A stretch of DNA of 64,000 bases from an uncultured Anaerotruncus sp. (GTDB lineage: Bacteria; Bacillota; Clostridia; Oscillospirales; Ruminococcaceae), in NCBI GenBank assembly GCA_904398655.1, contig CAJFPF010000055.1, positions 31,637 to 95,636 on the forward strand. The letters run 5' to 3'. The translations under genes and the position numbers were made by a program. Positions 15,185-51,372 of this stretch are shown one piece after another. Each line of letters begins with the position of its first letter. Positions within the stretch are counted from its first letter, which is position 1. The notes under the pieces were generated by a model. It was not told where the DNA came from. It ran no database searches and saw nothing but the letters and a program-made list of their open reading frames with translations.

Positions 15185-15481
15185 TAAAATGCTTTGATGG
15201 GGAACAAGAGGATTCCCAATCCGCTGCAGAGAGCTGTTGGTTGGTGCAAGACAGTGCGGAAGGATTCTTCACTCGCCCCGGAGCAGCCAGCTGAACGATT
15301 TTTCTAGTAGGTTTGGCCGGGTTTCCTCCCGTTATCAAAGGAAGGCATTGCAATGCTACATTTTGTTAGCAAGAGATGCCGCAGAGTTGGGCAGGATTTG
15401 CCAACAAGAGTGGTACCGCGGAAACGTTTCACGCTTTCGTCTCTTGGAAAATAATTTTCCGGAGACGAAAGCGTTTTTTTA
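15185..15481 (+). ncRNA. T-box riboswitch (leader with Stem I, T-box motif and terminator)
   Basis: AGAGAGCTG...GGTTGGTGCAAGACAG Stem I, AGTAGG, CCGGG...CCCGTTA stem III, T-box TGGTACCGCG (15411-15420), terminator CGCTTTCGTCTC...GAGACGAAAGCGTTTTTTT (15432-15481). Confidence 0.92.
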
Positions 15482-15524
15482 TTTCTCTCCGGAGGGAATG
15501 TAAACTGACAGGGAGGTAATGTAC

Positions 15525-18062
15525 ATGAAACTTGCATTTTCCACACTGGGCTGTCCGGATTTTTCTTGGTCGGATATTTTTGCCATGGCCAAGGACTTTG
15601 GGTTCTCCGGCATTGAACTACGAGGACTGGGCAATGAGATCTTCTCCGTCCGCGCCAAACCTTTCCAGGAAGAGAATTTGCCTAAAACCATTGCCCAACT
15701 GCGCAAAATGCGTCTGGAGATTCCCTGCATCTCCACGGGAAACGCACTGAAATATCCAGAGCCTGAAAAACAGAAAGCGGCCAAGGAAGAGATATTAGAA
15801 ACTATCCAACTGGCCCAAAAATTGGGCGCTTCTTATATTCGAGTCCTGGCAGATCTGGCGGCTCAACCTCAGGGGGAAGTGGATGACGCGGTTGTGCTCA
15901 AAGCCCTTCGGGAGTTGGCTCCCTATGCAGAGGAGGCTGGGGTGATCCTTCTGGTGGAGACCAACGGTGTCTATACCAACACCGCTCGCTTACGGGAGCT
16001 GTTGGAACAGGTGGGCAGTGATAATGTGGCCGCCCTATGGGATACGCACCATCCTTACCGGTTTGCTGGGGAATCTCCCGAGCAGACGGTGCAAAATCTG
16101 GGAGCCTTCATCAAATATACCCATGTTAAAGACTCTGTAATGGAAAATGGGAAGGTCAGCTACCGACTAATGGGAGAGGGCGATCTCCCCATGGATGGAA
16201 TCGTCAGAGCCCTACGTTCCATCAATTATGAGGGCTATATCTCCCTAGAGTGGCTGAAGGCCTATGCCCCTGACCTCTCGGATGCAGGCATCGTTTTCCC
16301 CCATTTTGCCAACTATATGGCCCAATATCAGGAGTCAGCGGGGGATTCCCACCGCCTTTATGACAACCAGGCGGGTACAGGAAAATATGTCTGGCCCAAA
16401 GAGACCCTCATTGATCTGACCTTCCCGCAGGTCCTGGATCGGATGGTAGAGGAATTTCCCGACCAGTACTGCTTCCGCTACACAACCTGTGACTATACCC
16501 GTACCTATGCAGAGTTTCGGGATGATGTGGACACTTTCGCACGGGCTTTGATTGCGATGGGTGTCAAAGCGGGGGATCATGTGGCCATCTGGGCCACAAA
16601 TGTGCCCCAGTGGTTTATTACCTTCTGGGCCACGACCAAGATCGGTGCAGTCCTGGTGACAGTGAACACTGCCTATAAGATCCATGAGGCAGAATATCTG
16701 CTGCGTCAGTCAGATACCCACACACTCGTGATGATCGATGGATGCAAAGACTCCGATTATGTGGGGATTATGAAGGAACTCTGCCCCGAACTGGCCACTG
16801 CCCCAAAGGGCCGTCCGCTACACATTAAGCGCCTTCCATTCCTGCGCAACATCATCACTGTGGAATCCTCCCAGCCTGGGTGTTATACTTGGGATGAGGC
16901 GATGTCCCTGGCTTCCCGGGTACCCGTGGAAGAGGTTCTGCGCCGGGCTGCCACCATTAATAAGCATGATGTTTGCAATATGCAATATACCTCTGGTACC
17001 ACAGGATTCCCCAAAGGGGTTATGCTTACCCATTACAATGTGGTTAACAATGGTAAGGCCATCGGAGATTGCATGGATCTGTCCACCGCAGATAAATTGA
17101 TGATCCAGGTGCCCATGTTCCACTGTTTTGGCATGGTGTTGGCCATGACGGCGGCTATGACCCACGGCACCACCATGTGTCCTATCCCCATGTTCTCCCC
17201 CAAAAAAGGGCTGGATTGCATCAATCGGGAGCAGATCACCGCATTCCATGGGGTCCCCACGATGTTCATTGCCATGCTGGGGCATGAGGATTTTCCCAAC
17301 ACTGATTTCAGCCATATGCGTACCGGCATTATGGCTGGCAGTCCCTGCCCTGTGAAGGTGATGCAGGATGTCATTGAGAAAATGCACATGCCCGAGATCT
17401 GTATTACCTATGGCCAGACAGAGGCTTCTCCTGGTTGTACCATGAGTAAGACCACCGACTCCCTGGAAACCCGTGTCAACACAGTGGGCGGAGCTATTTT
17501 TGGCGTTCAGTGCAAGATCGTTGATCCGGAAACGGGAGAGGACCTGCCTGATAATGTGGATGGGGAGTTTGTGGCTAAGGGCTACAATATTATGAAGGGC
17601 TACTATAAGATGCCCACAGCCACCGCGGCGGCGATTGATGAGGATGGTTGGCTTCACACTGGGGATCTGGCCCGCCGGGATGAAAATGGGAACTACAAGA
17701 TCACAGGCCGGATCAAAGATATGATTATCCGCGGCGGTGAAAACATCTATCCCAAGGAGATTGAGGACTTTATCTATACCAATCCCAAGGTCCAGGATGT
17801 CCAAGTGATCGGCGTACCGGATAAGCAGTATGGGGAGGAGATCATGGCCTGTGTCATTCTAAAGGATGGCGAGCAGATGACCGAAGAAGAGCTCAAAGAT
17901 TATGTGCTCACCCATATGGCCAAGCATAAGGTACCCCGTTATGTGGATTTTGTGGAAAGCTTTCCCATGAATGCCGCCGGAAAGATCCTGAAATATAAGA
18001 TGCGGGAGCAGGCGGTGGAGAAACTTCGCCTACAGGATGCTGCCAGCATTGAGACCGCATAA
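15525..18062 (+). CDS. Fusion: xylose isomerase-like TIM barrel (sugar phosphate isomerase/epimerase) + AMP-forming acyl-CoA synthetase
   Basis: N-term LVETNG/WDTHHPYR/THVKDS/SLEWLK metal-site motifs; C-term YTSGTTGFPKGVMLTH, ITYGQTEAS, GDLARRDENGNYKITGRIKDMIIRGGENIYPKEIE, AGKILKYKMRE; uninterrupted frame. Confidence 0.9.
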   Translation: MKLAFSTLGCPDFSWSDIFAMAKDFGFSGIELRGLGNEIFSVRAKPFQEENLPKTIAQLRKMRLEIPCISTGNALKYPEPEKQKAAKEEILETIQLAQKLGASYIRVLADLAAQPQGEVDDAVVLKALRELAPYAEEAGVILLVETNGVYTNTARLRELLEQVGSDNVAALWDTHHPYRFAGESPEQTVQNLGAFIKYTHVKDSVMENGKVSYRLMGEGDLPMDGIVRALRSINYEGYISLEWLKAYAPDLSDAGIVFPHFANYMAQYQESAGDSHRLYDNQAGTGKYVWPKETLIDLTFPQVLDRMVEEFPDQYCFRYTTCDYTRTYAEFRDDVDTFARALIAMGVKAGDHVAIWATNVPQWFITFWATTKIGAVLVTVNTAYKIHEAEYLLRQSDTHTLVMIDGCKDSDYVGIMKELCPELATAPKGRPLHIKRLPFLRNIITVESSQPGCYTWDEAMSLASRVPVEEVLRRAATINKHDVCNMQYTSGTTGFPKGVMLTHYNVVNNGKAIGDCMDLSTADKLMIQVPMFHCFGMVLAMTAAMTHGTTMCPIPMFSPKKGLDCINREQITAFHGVPTMFIAMLGHEDFPNTDFSHMRTGIMAGSPCPVKVMQDVIEKMHMPEICITYGQTEASPGCTMSKTTDSLETRVNTVGGAIFGVQCKIVDPETGEDLPDNVDGEFVAKGYNIMKGYYKMPTATAAAIDEDGWLHTGDLARRDENGNYKITGRIKDMIIRGGENIYPKEIEDFIYTNPKVQDVQVIGVPDKQYGEEIMACVILKDGEQMTEEELKDYVLTHMAKHKVPRYVDFVESFPMNAAGKILKYKMREQAVEKLRLQDAASIETA

Positions 18063-49048: not shown

Positions 49049-49939
49049 TTACAAAAGCCCGGCGTCTTGAAGGGCCTTTTTCAAAATTTCTTTGCGGGCC
49101 CCATCCAGAGGAATCAATGGGAGACGAGGGGCACCAGCTTTCCAACCCAGTAGATTCATAGCCTCTTTTACCGGGATGGGGTTCACATCTGAGAAGAGGG
49201 CATTGATCAAAGGCAACAGCTTGATTTGCAGATCTGCGCTCTCCTGTACTTTTCCATCAAAATACAGCTGGCACATGTCATGGGCCTGTCTTGGGGCCAC
49301 GTTGGAAAGCACTGAAATAACACCTTTTCCCCCTAAGGAGAGGATCGGAACTGTCTGGTCATCATTTCCAGAGTAAAGATCCAGCGCATCTCCGCAGAGA
49401 TAACGGATGTTGGCAATCTGGCTCAGATCCCCGCTGGCCTCTTTGGTAGCCACAATGTTGGGATGTTGGCAAAGCTTTTGATAGGTGGCTGGCTGGATGT
49501 TGACGCCAGTGCGGCTAGGAACATTGTAGAGGATGATAGGCAGGCTAGTGGCATCTGCCAAGGCAAAGAAATGGCTAATCAGTCCTGCTTGAGAGGTTTT
49601 ATTATAATAAGGGGTAACCTGCAGCAGGGCGTCCGCACCCGCTTGTTCAGCCTGCTTGGAAATTTCAATGGCATGGGCGGTATTGTTGCTACCAGCGCCG
49701 GCTACCACAGGGACACGTCCAGCCACCTTTTCCACTGCAAAACGGATACACTCCACCTGCTCCTTCTCTGTCATGGCGGAGGCCTCTCCTGTGGTACCCA
49801 CTGTTACAATGGAATCGGTCCCATTGGAGATTTGGTGTTCAATCAGTCGGCCATACTCCTCCCAATTGATGGAAAGATCCTCATTCATGGGAGTGATGAT
49901 CGCCACGCCTGTACCCGTGAAGATTGTCTTTTTGCTCAT
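49049..49939 (-). CDS. dapA: 4-hydroxy-tetrahydrodipicolinate synthase
   Basis: GTGVAIITPMNEDLSINW; VGTTGEASAMTEKEQ; YNVPSRTGVN. Confidence 0.97.
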   Translation of the reverse strand: MSKKTIFTGTGVAIITPMNEDLSINWEEYGRLIEHQISNGTDSIVTVGTTGEASAMTEKEQVECIRFAVEKVAGRVPVVAGAGSNNTAHAIEISKQAEQAGADALLQVTPYYNKTSQAGLISHFFALADATSLPIILYNVPSRTGVNIQPATYQKLCQHPNIVATKEASGDLSQIANIRYLCGDALDLYSGNDDQTVPILSLGGKGVISVLSNVAPRQAHDMCQLYFDGKVQESADLQIKLLPLINALFSDVNPIPVKEAMNLLGWKAGAPRLPLIPLDGARKEILKKALQDAGLL

Positions 49940-49972
49940 TACAAAAACCACCTTTCTACCCCAAAATTCATT

Positions 49973-51052
49973 TTAGTCGAGATATCCTCTCGCTGCTAAC
50001 AATTCTGCCAGTAACACAGCGCCGCCCGCCGCTCCACGCAAAGTGTTGTGGGAAAGGCAGACAAACTTGTAGTCATACTGGGTGTCCTCCCGCAGCCGCC
50101 CGATTGAGACCGCCATTCCATTTTCCAGGTTGCGGTCCAATTTGGTCTGAGGGCGGCTCTCCTCTTCAAAATAATGTAAGAAGTGTTTGGGAGCGCTGGG
50201 CAGTCCCAATTTTTGAGGGGCCCCGGAAAATGCCGCCCAACGTTCTTTCATCTGTTGCATAGTTGGTTTTTTCTCAAAACTCGCGAACACCGCCGCCATA
50301 TGGCCGTCCGAACAGGGGACCCGTAGGCACTGTGCAGTAAAAGCAGGGGAGGTGGCGGGCACAATCGCCCCGTCCTGGATGGTACCCCAAATCTTCAACG
50401 GCTCCCGTTCACTTTTTTCCTCCTCCCCGGGGATGTAGGGAATGACGTTATCTACAATTTCCGGAAAGGTTTCAAATGTTTTTCCCGCTCCGGAAATTGC
50501 TTGGTAGGTACAGACGAGTGTTTTGGTAAGGCCAAACTCCTCCTTCAAGGGATGGAGCGCTGGTACATAGCTCTGCAAAGAACAGTTGGATTTGACTGCC
50601 ACAAATCCCCTCCGGGTGCCCAACCGTTTTCGTTGCGCCGGGATGATCTGGAGATGTTCATCATTGAGCTCCGGAATCACCATGGGGACGTCAGGAGTGA
50701 ATCGGTGGGCCGAATTGTTGGAGACCACCGGGCACTCCGCTTGGGCATAGGCTTCCTCCAGTGCCCGAATCTCCTCTTTTTTCATATCTACCGCGCAAAA
50801 AACAAAATCCGCCTGTTGAGCAACTTTCTCCACATCGGCCGCGTTCTGGATCACCATCTTTTTGACCCCTTCCGGGATCGGTGAGGTCATTACCCAGCGG
50901 TCTTTCACCGCATCTTCATAGATTTTTCCAGCCGAATTGGGGGAAGCTGCCAAAACCGTCAGCTGAAACCATGGATGGTTTGCCAAAAGGCTGATAAAAC
51001 GCTGTCCTACCATCCCGGTAGCCCCTACAACACCCACATTCCATTTTTTCAT
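49973..51052 (-). CDS. asd: Aspartate-semialdehyde dehydrogenase
   Basis: VGVVGATGMVGQRFISLLANHPWFQL; VKSNCSLQSYVPAL. Confidence 0.95.
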   Translation of the reverse strand: MKKWNVGVVGATGMVGQRFISLLANHPWFQLTVLAASPNSAGKIYEDAVKDRWVMTSPIPEGVKKMVIQNAADVEKVAQQADFVFCAVDMKKEEIRALEEAYAQAECPVVSNNSAHRFTPDVPMVIPELNDEHLQIIPAQRKRLGTRRGFVAVKSNCSLQSYVPALHPLKEEFGLTKTLVCTYQAISGAGKTFETFPEIVDNVIPYIPGEEEKSEREPLKIWGTIQDGAIVPATSPAFTAQCLRVPCSDGHMAAVFASFEKKPTMQQMKERWAAFSGAPQKLGLPSAPKHFLHYFEEESRPQTKLDRNLENGMAVSIGRLREDTQYDYKFVCLSHNTLRGAAGGAVLLAELLAARGYLD

Positions 51053-51094
51053 TGCCAAAACCCCTTTTTTCAAATCATATGCAGATTGGGATAA

Positions 51095-51372
51095 TAAAAA
51101 AACCGGTTGAAAACCGGTTCAAATTCCATTATAATGGAGAAGTTCTAAAATATGCCAGTAAATAGTTCGCAGCAGGAAAACCACGTCCCATCCACCGCCA
51201 TAGCGCTCCATCATAACGTAAAATGATGACAGTCGCAAGCCTATTTGGCTGTGCGCCCAGAGAAACCGCTTGCCAAACGTTTCTCTTCGGCGTCGATCCC
51301 TTTCGCACGGTATAAACGACTTTGGCAGTCTGAGCCGAGCTACTGATGAAAGACGCGACCTCTACCGGTTTG
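51095..51372 (-). ncRNA. Lysine riboswitch (L-box) with downstream terminator
   Basis: Minus strand: GGTAGAGGTCGCG...ATCAGTA...GAAAGGGATCGACGCCGAAG...CTTGCGACTGTCATCA...TGGAGCGCTATGG, then AACCGGTTTTCAACCGGTTTTTTTA; promoter TTGACA-17-TAATAT at 51443-51415. Confidence 0.88.

Follow-up and report, generated by a model that had tools for sequence, protein, structure and literature searches.

A leucine T-box gene of Clostridia joining a TIM barrel to a predicted branched-chain acid:CoA ligase

The window (the whole stretch of 64,000 nucleotides analysed here) carries on its forward strand, at positions 15525–18062, a gene that joins a xylose-isomerase-like TIM barrel to an AMP-forming acyl-CoA synthetase. 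All features of this gene and its leader given below are on the same strand. As the earlier note stated, it is one unbroken frame, running from the ATG at 15525 to the stop codon at 18060–18062, and its product is 845 amino acids long. A second in-frame ATG is present upstream, at 15519. The ATG at 15525 is preferred as the start, based on the Shine-Dalgarno sequence GGGAGG at 15511–15516, 8 nt before it, and on the residues M1-K2, which are invariant in the alignment of homologues. An open reading frame of 328 codons is contained in the gene on the complementary strand (16818–17804), and is probably a chance mirror of the codon bias of the fused gene. The neighbouring genes, named by eye, are SepF/PepP upstream and SpoIIGA/SigE-like genes downstream, and they do not form a pathway. 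PADLOC gave no match. Elsewhere in the window, a lysine riboswitch (51193–51372, complementary strand, 102.9 bits) precedes Asd/DapA-like genes at 49049–51073.

The Pfam search finds both parts of the fusion above the cut-offs. AP_endonuc_2 (PF01261) covers residues 19–245 (E = 7.9e-36, 124.4 bits against a cut-off of 31.1). AMP-binding (PF00501) covers residues 305–694 (E = 7.1e-90, 302 bits against 29.9), and AMP-binding_C (PF13193) covers residues 745–820 (E = 1.3e-18, 68.1 bits against 24.5). The AlphaFold model of the full-length protein (pLDDT 84.5, pTM 0.64) contains a (beta/alpha)8 barrel at residues 1–266, a linker of low confidence at residues 271–276, and an ANL fold at residues 298–833. 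The barrel (15525–16322), modelled alone, reaches a pLDDT of 92.5 and a pTM of 0.91. Its putative metal ligands are E145 (15957–15959), D173 (16041–16043), H200 (16122–16124), and E242 (16248–16250). The inter-domain linker, residues 267–297 (16323–16415), contains the invariant G286, W290, and K292. The synthetase (16416–18023) contains YTSGTTGFPKG (16986–17018), TGDL, the GRIKD hinge, and the catalytic lysine K820 (17982–17984), and has both the domains and the motifs of the ANL superfamily. All the barrel and synthetase motifs quoted in the earlier note are found in the translation. The nearest NCBIfam model of the fused protein is PRK12583 / NF009233 (residues 292–836), at 683.6 bits, below the curated cut-off of 832. 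The MbcS equivalog NF047394 is absent from the best 25 NCBIfam matches. Judging from its residues, the synthetase half is apparently an active acyl-CoA synthetase.

These two folds are generally separate proteins, as had been noted, but their fusion is common in Clostridia. In the genomes sampled, full-length fusions were counted in ~140 of 394 from the order (54–96% identity), in ~89 of 291 from the class, and in 14 others among 300 from the phylum; these, like all cross-genome counts below, are from related draft genomes, which are phylogenetically non-independent and in which the absence of a gene proves nothing. When GTDB contigs were scanned with the stretch from barrel to ligase, at least 530 candidate loci encoding relatives were retrieved. 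The best 80 of these were examined, and they include Ca. Formimonas warabiya, Anaerobacterium chartisolvens, Desulfotomaculaceae, and many gut or rumen Oscillospiraceae. The carriers of the fusion are hundreds of Clostridia from gut and digester. Literature searches for the barrel-synthetase fusion returned nothing relevant.

In the trees, a single branch sets the fused ligase domains apart, and another does so for the fused barrels (SH-aLRT 94 and 99). Based on this phylogeny, the simplest history is one ancient fusion event that gave rise to all copies. The fusions that group with the window are here called clade A, and the sister fused clade is called clade B. A frameshift, a chimera, or an assembly error could in principle have merged two genes, and unfused neighbours do occur in the same genus. 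However, many independent full-length fusions are present in many genomes, and each fused domain forms one clade, which leaves a negligible probability for an artefact.

In unfused relatives, a ligase gene is followed by a barrel gene, mostly within ~100 bases, as an ANL-to-TIM operon (L329–L336 and L353–L355). The unfused barrels are 39–47% identical, and the gene order is the reverse of that in the fusion. These operons indicate that the functional tie between the two halves is real. Between the unfused ligase and barrel genes, five species of the window's genus, and one further species of the same family, carry a kinase-like gene encoding zinc ribbon and PASTA domains (L034–L039). Nearly all copies of it have lost HRD and DFG, and it looks like a pseudokinase. 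A link through phosphorylation by a Ser/Thr kinase in these operons was dropped for the same reason. Genes for 2-oxoacid:ferredoxin oxidoreductase are close downstream in 4 of 11 unfused ANL-TIM operons, against a background of 2–8 PF01855 matches per genome. Unfused ligases adjoin leuS (named by eye) in four genomes (L349–L352), with leucine T-boxes. The window copy stands alone, without VOR or BCAT alongside, and PF01855 genes are present elsewhere in its genome.

Two further associations were seen among these relatives. A PF04909 amidohydrolase is recurrent near ligase-barrel genes (L330, L331, L332, L334, L347, and 11 clade-B loci), and a homologue is encoded elsewhere in the genome of the window (G000:C5:4287-5069). 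A ligase of the same family lies without a barrel between an MFS transporter and a metallo-beta-lactamase-fold protein (L045 and L046).

Upstream of the fused gene, a T-box leader (RF00230) is located at 15185–15447, with an Infernal score of 101.5 bits against the Rfam gathering threshold of 93. Our own stem-I model matches 15185–15286 with 93.3 bits, the window sequence itself being part of that model. The specifier codon in stem I is CTC (leucine) at 15272–15274, both in the Rfam alignment and in the alignment of homologous leaders. The T-box TGGT at 15411–15414, in AGAGTGGTACCGCGG, pairs with the ACCA end of a tRNA with A73. A terminator hairpin with a U-run, the off state of the T-box, occupies 15431–15480, and the fold of 15395–15490 has a free energy of −33.4 kcal/mol (z = −4.6). 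The leader therefore has the RF00230 score, the stem I specifier loop, the TGGN/antiterminator, and the terminator of a T-box.

In the 450 nt before the gene, the core motif of the T-box is present at 104 of 153 clade-A fusions, at 17 of 38 unfused ligase genes, and at 28 of 34 clade-B operons consisting of a LeuA-like gene and the fusion, but at none of 12 standalone barrel genes. Of 88 clade-A loci, 72 have a match to the stem-I covariance model, in each case on the strand of the gene and 177–487 nt before its start; at the other 16, no leader was found. Specifiers were taken from the covariance-model alignments of the leaders. All 72 aligned clade-A leaders have a leucine codon (65 CUC and 7 CUG), and the aligned family leaders of unfused homologues and of the sister clade have a leucine specifier throughout. 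By this conserved specifier, the fused gene is a member of a leucine T-box regulon, with a predicted response to tRNA-Leu, and such regulation points to a role in leucine supply. In the main text of a T-box survey (PMC2494555), the specifier matched the gene function in all verified cases. No acyl-CoA synthetase is mentioned in that main text, and passages of PMC3766115 also name none; other standard surveys may list one.

Specifiers of other T-box genes were compared as controls. The canonical LeuA of the window's own genome has CUC (Leu). AUC (Ile) is the specifier of MbcS-type ligases that carry an XRE part, and one such leader is in the window's genome (L031). A second XRE-ligase has GUA (Val), and phenylacetate-CoA ligase, a gene named by eye, has UUC (Phe). 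In six MbcS-type leaders with an insertion, the column tally reads CTC and the contiguous triplet read by eye is ATC, so that the raw tally overcounts Leu. According to PMC10026030, the preferred substrates of S. aureus MbcS are 2-methylbutyrate and isobutyrate, and isovalerate is used poorly. This leaves the slot of isovalerate and leucine open, and a separate isovalerate ligase is to be expected.

MbcS-like synthetases that carry an XRE part at the N-terminus lie under AUC or GUA T-boxes at L059:544-3093, L062:12420-17637, L126, L129, L133, and L031. Genes resembling phenylacetate-CoA ligase, by eye, are under UUC T-boxes at L061:4846-6492 (+) and L149:12108-12354 (−). At the former locus, a glycine riboswitch aptamer (L061:3009-3100, +) precedes a probable symporter gene.

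The barrel shows different conservation in the two clades. E145, D173, H200, and E242 are intact in 51 of 52 clade-A fusions, and these ligands are invariant across a set of 52 sequences. In clade B, the metal site was lost repeatedly; the ligands are intact in 11 of 37 fusions and broken in 26, while the synthetase motifs stay intact. Among 31 aligned fusions from both clades, the P-loop, GDL, the hinge, and the A10 lysine are invariant or nearly so. On the tree of all fusions, the ligand set must have switched between intact and broken six times or more.

AsbF (3dx5) is the best match of the barrel in profile (E = 4.3e-11) as well as in fold, the whole model is closest in fold to 4-coumarate:CoA ligase, and aroQ adjoins the fusion in two loci. 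From these matches, an AsbF-like dehydratase joined to an aryl-CoA ligase could be considered, which would convert 3-dehydroshikimate to protocatechuate and then to its CoA ester. This is very improbable, as the fused gene has a leucine T-box, the aroQ adjacency is limited to 2 of 41 loci, and the lead of AsbF over the epimerases in the fold comparison is marginal (3.8e-15 against 7.9e-15). Because AsbF and the sugar epimerases are nearly tied, the chemistry of the barrel is not readable from homology.

The earlier note proposed that the barrel isomerises or epimerises a hydroxy or keto (sugar) acid and that the synthetase makes its CoA ester. The intact clade-A tetrad fits such a step, and the closest folds of the barrel include, besides AsbF, sugar epimerases, YcjR, and IolI. 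A divergent GFO/IDH/MocA oxidoreductase also adjoins the fusion in one family (L051, L113–L118, and L120; for example, L117:8838-9926). However, this link is limited to that family, and a further 80 clade-A loci have no conserved neighbour in common. Around the fusion, the gene context showed no link to sugar acids. Besides, the gene is under a leucine T-box, and the 26 clade-B fusions with broken ligands retain an intact synthetase. What stands of the proposal is a real fusion of two linked halves in a single chain; isomerisation or epimerisation of an acid prior to its activation did not gain support, and is improbable.

Clade B differs from clade A also in its neighbourhood. A LeuA-like gene is located near 37 of 37 clade-B fusions and near 0 of 120 clade-A loci. 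In the 34 alignable copies (L048:11331-12758 on the minus strand, L059:8466-9854 on the plus strand, and 32 more loci), the catalytic barrel no longer has its LRDG and HxH motifs, and the motif GDG(P/S/A)(I/V)D of the dimer domain is kept. The dimer domain with this motif is leucine-binding in true LeuA. By its motifs, the clade-B LeuA-like protein is catalytically dead and keeps the motif of the leucine domain. Genuine LeuA, defined as TIGR00973 or NF002991 above the cut-off, is encoded by 5 of 37 clade-B genomes against 37 of 41 clade-A genomes (Fisher 3e-12, kinship ignored). LeuB shows the same trend (4 of 37 against 28 of 41). The window's own genome retains true LeuA. BCAT is near 11, and VorB near 9, of the 37 clade-B fusions.

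Branched-chain volatile acids have been known since the 1960s as growth factors for ruminococci. The best explanation for the fused gene, to which we give a probability of roughly 0.65, is that it encodes the branched-chain acid:CoA ligase belonging to the leucine T-box regulon, and that the attached barrel is regulatory or accessory. As in the T-box family in general, uncharged tRNA-Leu would let transcription proceed through the leader. The C-terminal half, with its intact catalytic residues, would form an acyl-AMP and then an acyl-CoA, which is the chemistry of ANL enzymes. The substrate is most likely isovalerate, which would be converted to isovaleryl-CoA. A 2-oxoacid:ferredoxin oxidoreductase would carboxylate isovaleryl-CoA to 2-oxoisocaproate, and a branched-chain aminotransferase would convert this to leucine, which is probably the end product of the pathway. 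Isovalerate and leucine are suggested by the Leu specifier, by the neighbours in relatives, and by the corresponding Ile, Val, and Phe ligases under T-boxes. According to PMC7356843, citing Allison (1962, 1966), isovalerate, 2-methylbutyrate, and isobutyrate are carboxylated and aminated in rumen bacteria to leucine, isoleucine, and valine, respectively, and for isovalerate this is established biochemistry. The T-box ligases, each with the leader of the amino acid that its route would supply, fit these conversions as a set. In the literature searched, the enzyme that activates isovalerate for carboxylation had no gene assigned to it, and the fused gene is a candidate. In the host of the window, leucine need not derive from isovalerate, since true LeuA is present under its own leucine T-box.

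A leucine-regulated ligase might instead activate an acid, branched-chain or other, that goes into the fatty acids of the membrane, into signalling, or into metabolites derived from leucine, and not into leucine synthesis. The ligase family is broad, its nearest model being below the cut-off, and in S. aureus, MbcS, which has been characterised, supplies fatty acid synthesis (PMC10026030). LeuA is also retained by clade-A hosts. However, T-boxes raise the supply of their own amino acid, three other acid:CoA ligases with Ile, Val, and Phe T-boxes fit known carboxylation routes, and VOR, POR, and BCAT are neighbours in relatives. Such an end use is therefore unlikely.

In the preferred reading, the barrel is functionally tied to the ligase, and the clade-A barrel with its full metal site would bind or convert a ligand. 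We lean slightly to a role in control, at about even odds, over a catalytic step, which has a smaller but considerable chance. The XRE parts on the Ile and Val ligases, the pseudokinase, and the dead LeuA suggest that the accessory parts of T-box ligases are controls. For the strictly kept metal site of clade A, catalysis is no worse an explanation than control, and a catalytic barrel stays under consideration.

A wider and tentative speculation, doubtful as a whole, is that these Clostridia turn waste acids into amino acids by reductive carboxylation, with the help of a set of T-box ligases. The TIM-ligase would act on isovalerate for Leu, XRE-MbcS on 2-methylbutyrate for Ile and isobutyrate for Val, and PaaK on phenylacetate for Phe. 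In clade B, the ligase route would have replaced de novo leucine synthesis, LeuA would have turned into a leucine sensor acting on the fused ligase, and the barrel of the fusion would have become a docking or control domain. If the preferred reading of the fused gene is right, isovalerate activation would have its gene and, with the Ile, Val, and Phe counterparts, the whole ligase set would be at hand. Regulation would read out the purpose of a ligase gene, and the fusion would predict which gut and rumen bacteria depend on the branched-chain acids of their neighbours. LeuA would be an enzyme apparently kept only for its sensor domain.

Among known systems, MbcS (NF047394; S. aureus, PMC10026030) is an ANL synthetase for branched-chain volatile acids, similar to the role predicted here. 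MbcS-like genes in the sampled genomes have Ile or Val T-boxes, just as the fused gene has a Leu T-box. MbcS belongs to a different ANL subfamily, such paralogues being 24–34% identical, and it lacks the TIM barrel; some MbcS homologues have an N-terminal XRE part in its place. The fatty acid CoA ligases of PRK12583 / NF009233 have the same full set of catalytic motifs, but their model does not include a barrel. A literature search on YngI returned nothing relevant. The AP_endonuc_2 barrels AsbF, IolI, D-tagatose 3-epimerase, and YcjR share the fold and the E-D-H-E tetrad with the fused barrel. Unlike these enzymes, the fused barrels constitute one clade, and the tetrad is lost in much of the sister clade. 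The RNA element and the Leu specifier are common to the fused gene and the leucine T-box regulon (leuA and leuS), and the true LeuA of the same genome carries a leucine T-box as the fused gene does. With the route reported for ruminococci by Allison (1962, 1966), as cited in PMC7356843, the predicted chemistry and the host range of the fused gene agree.
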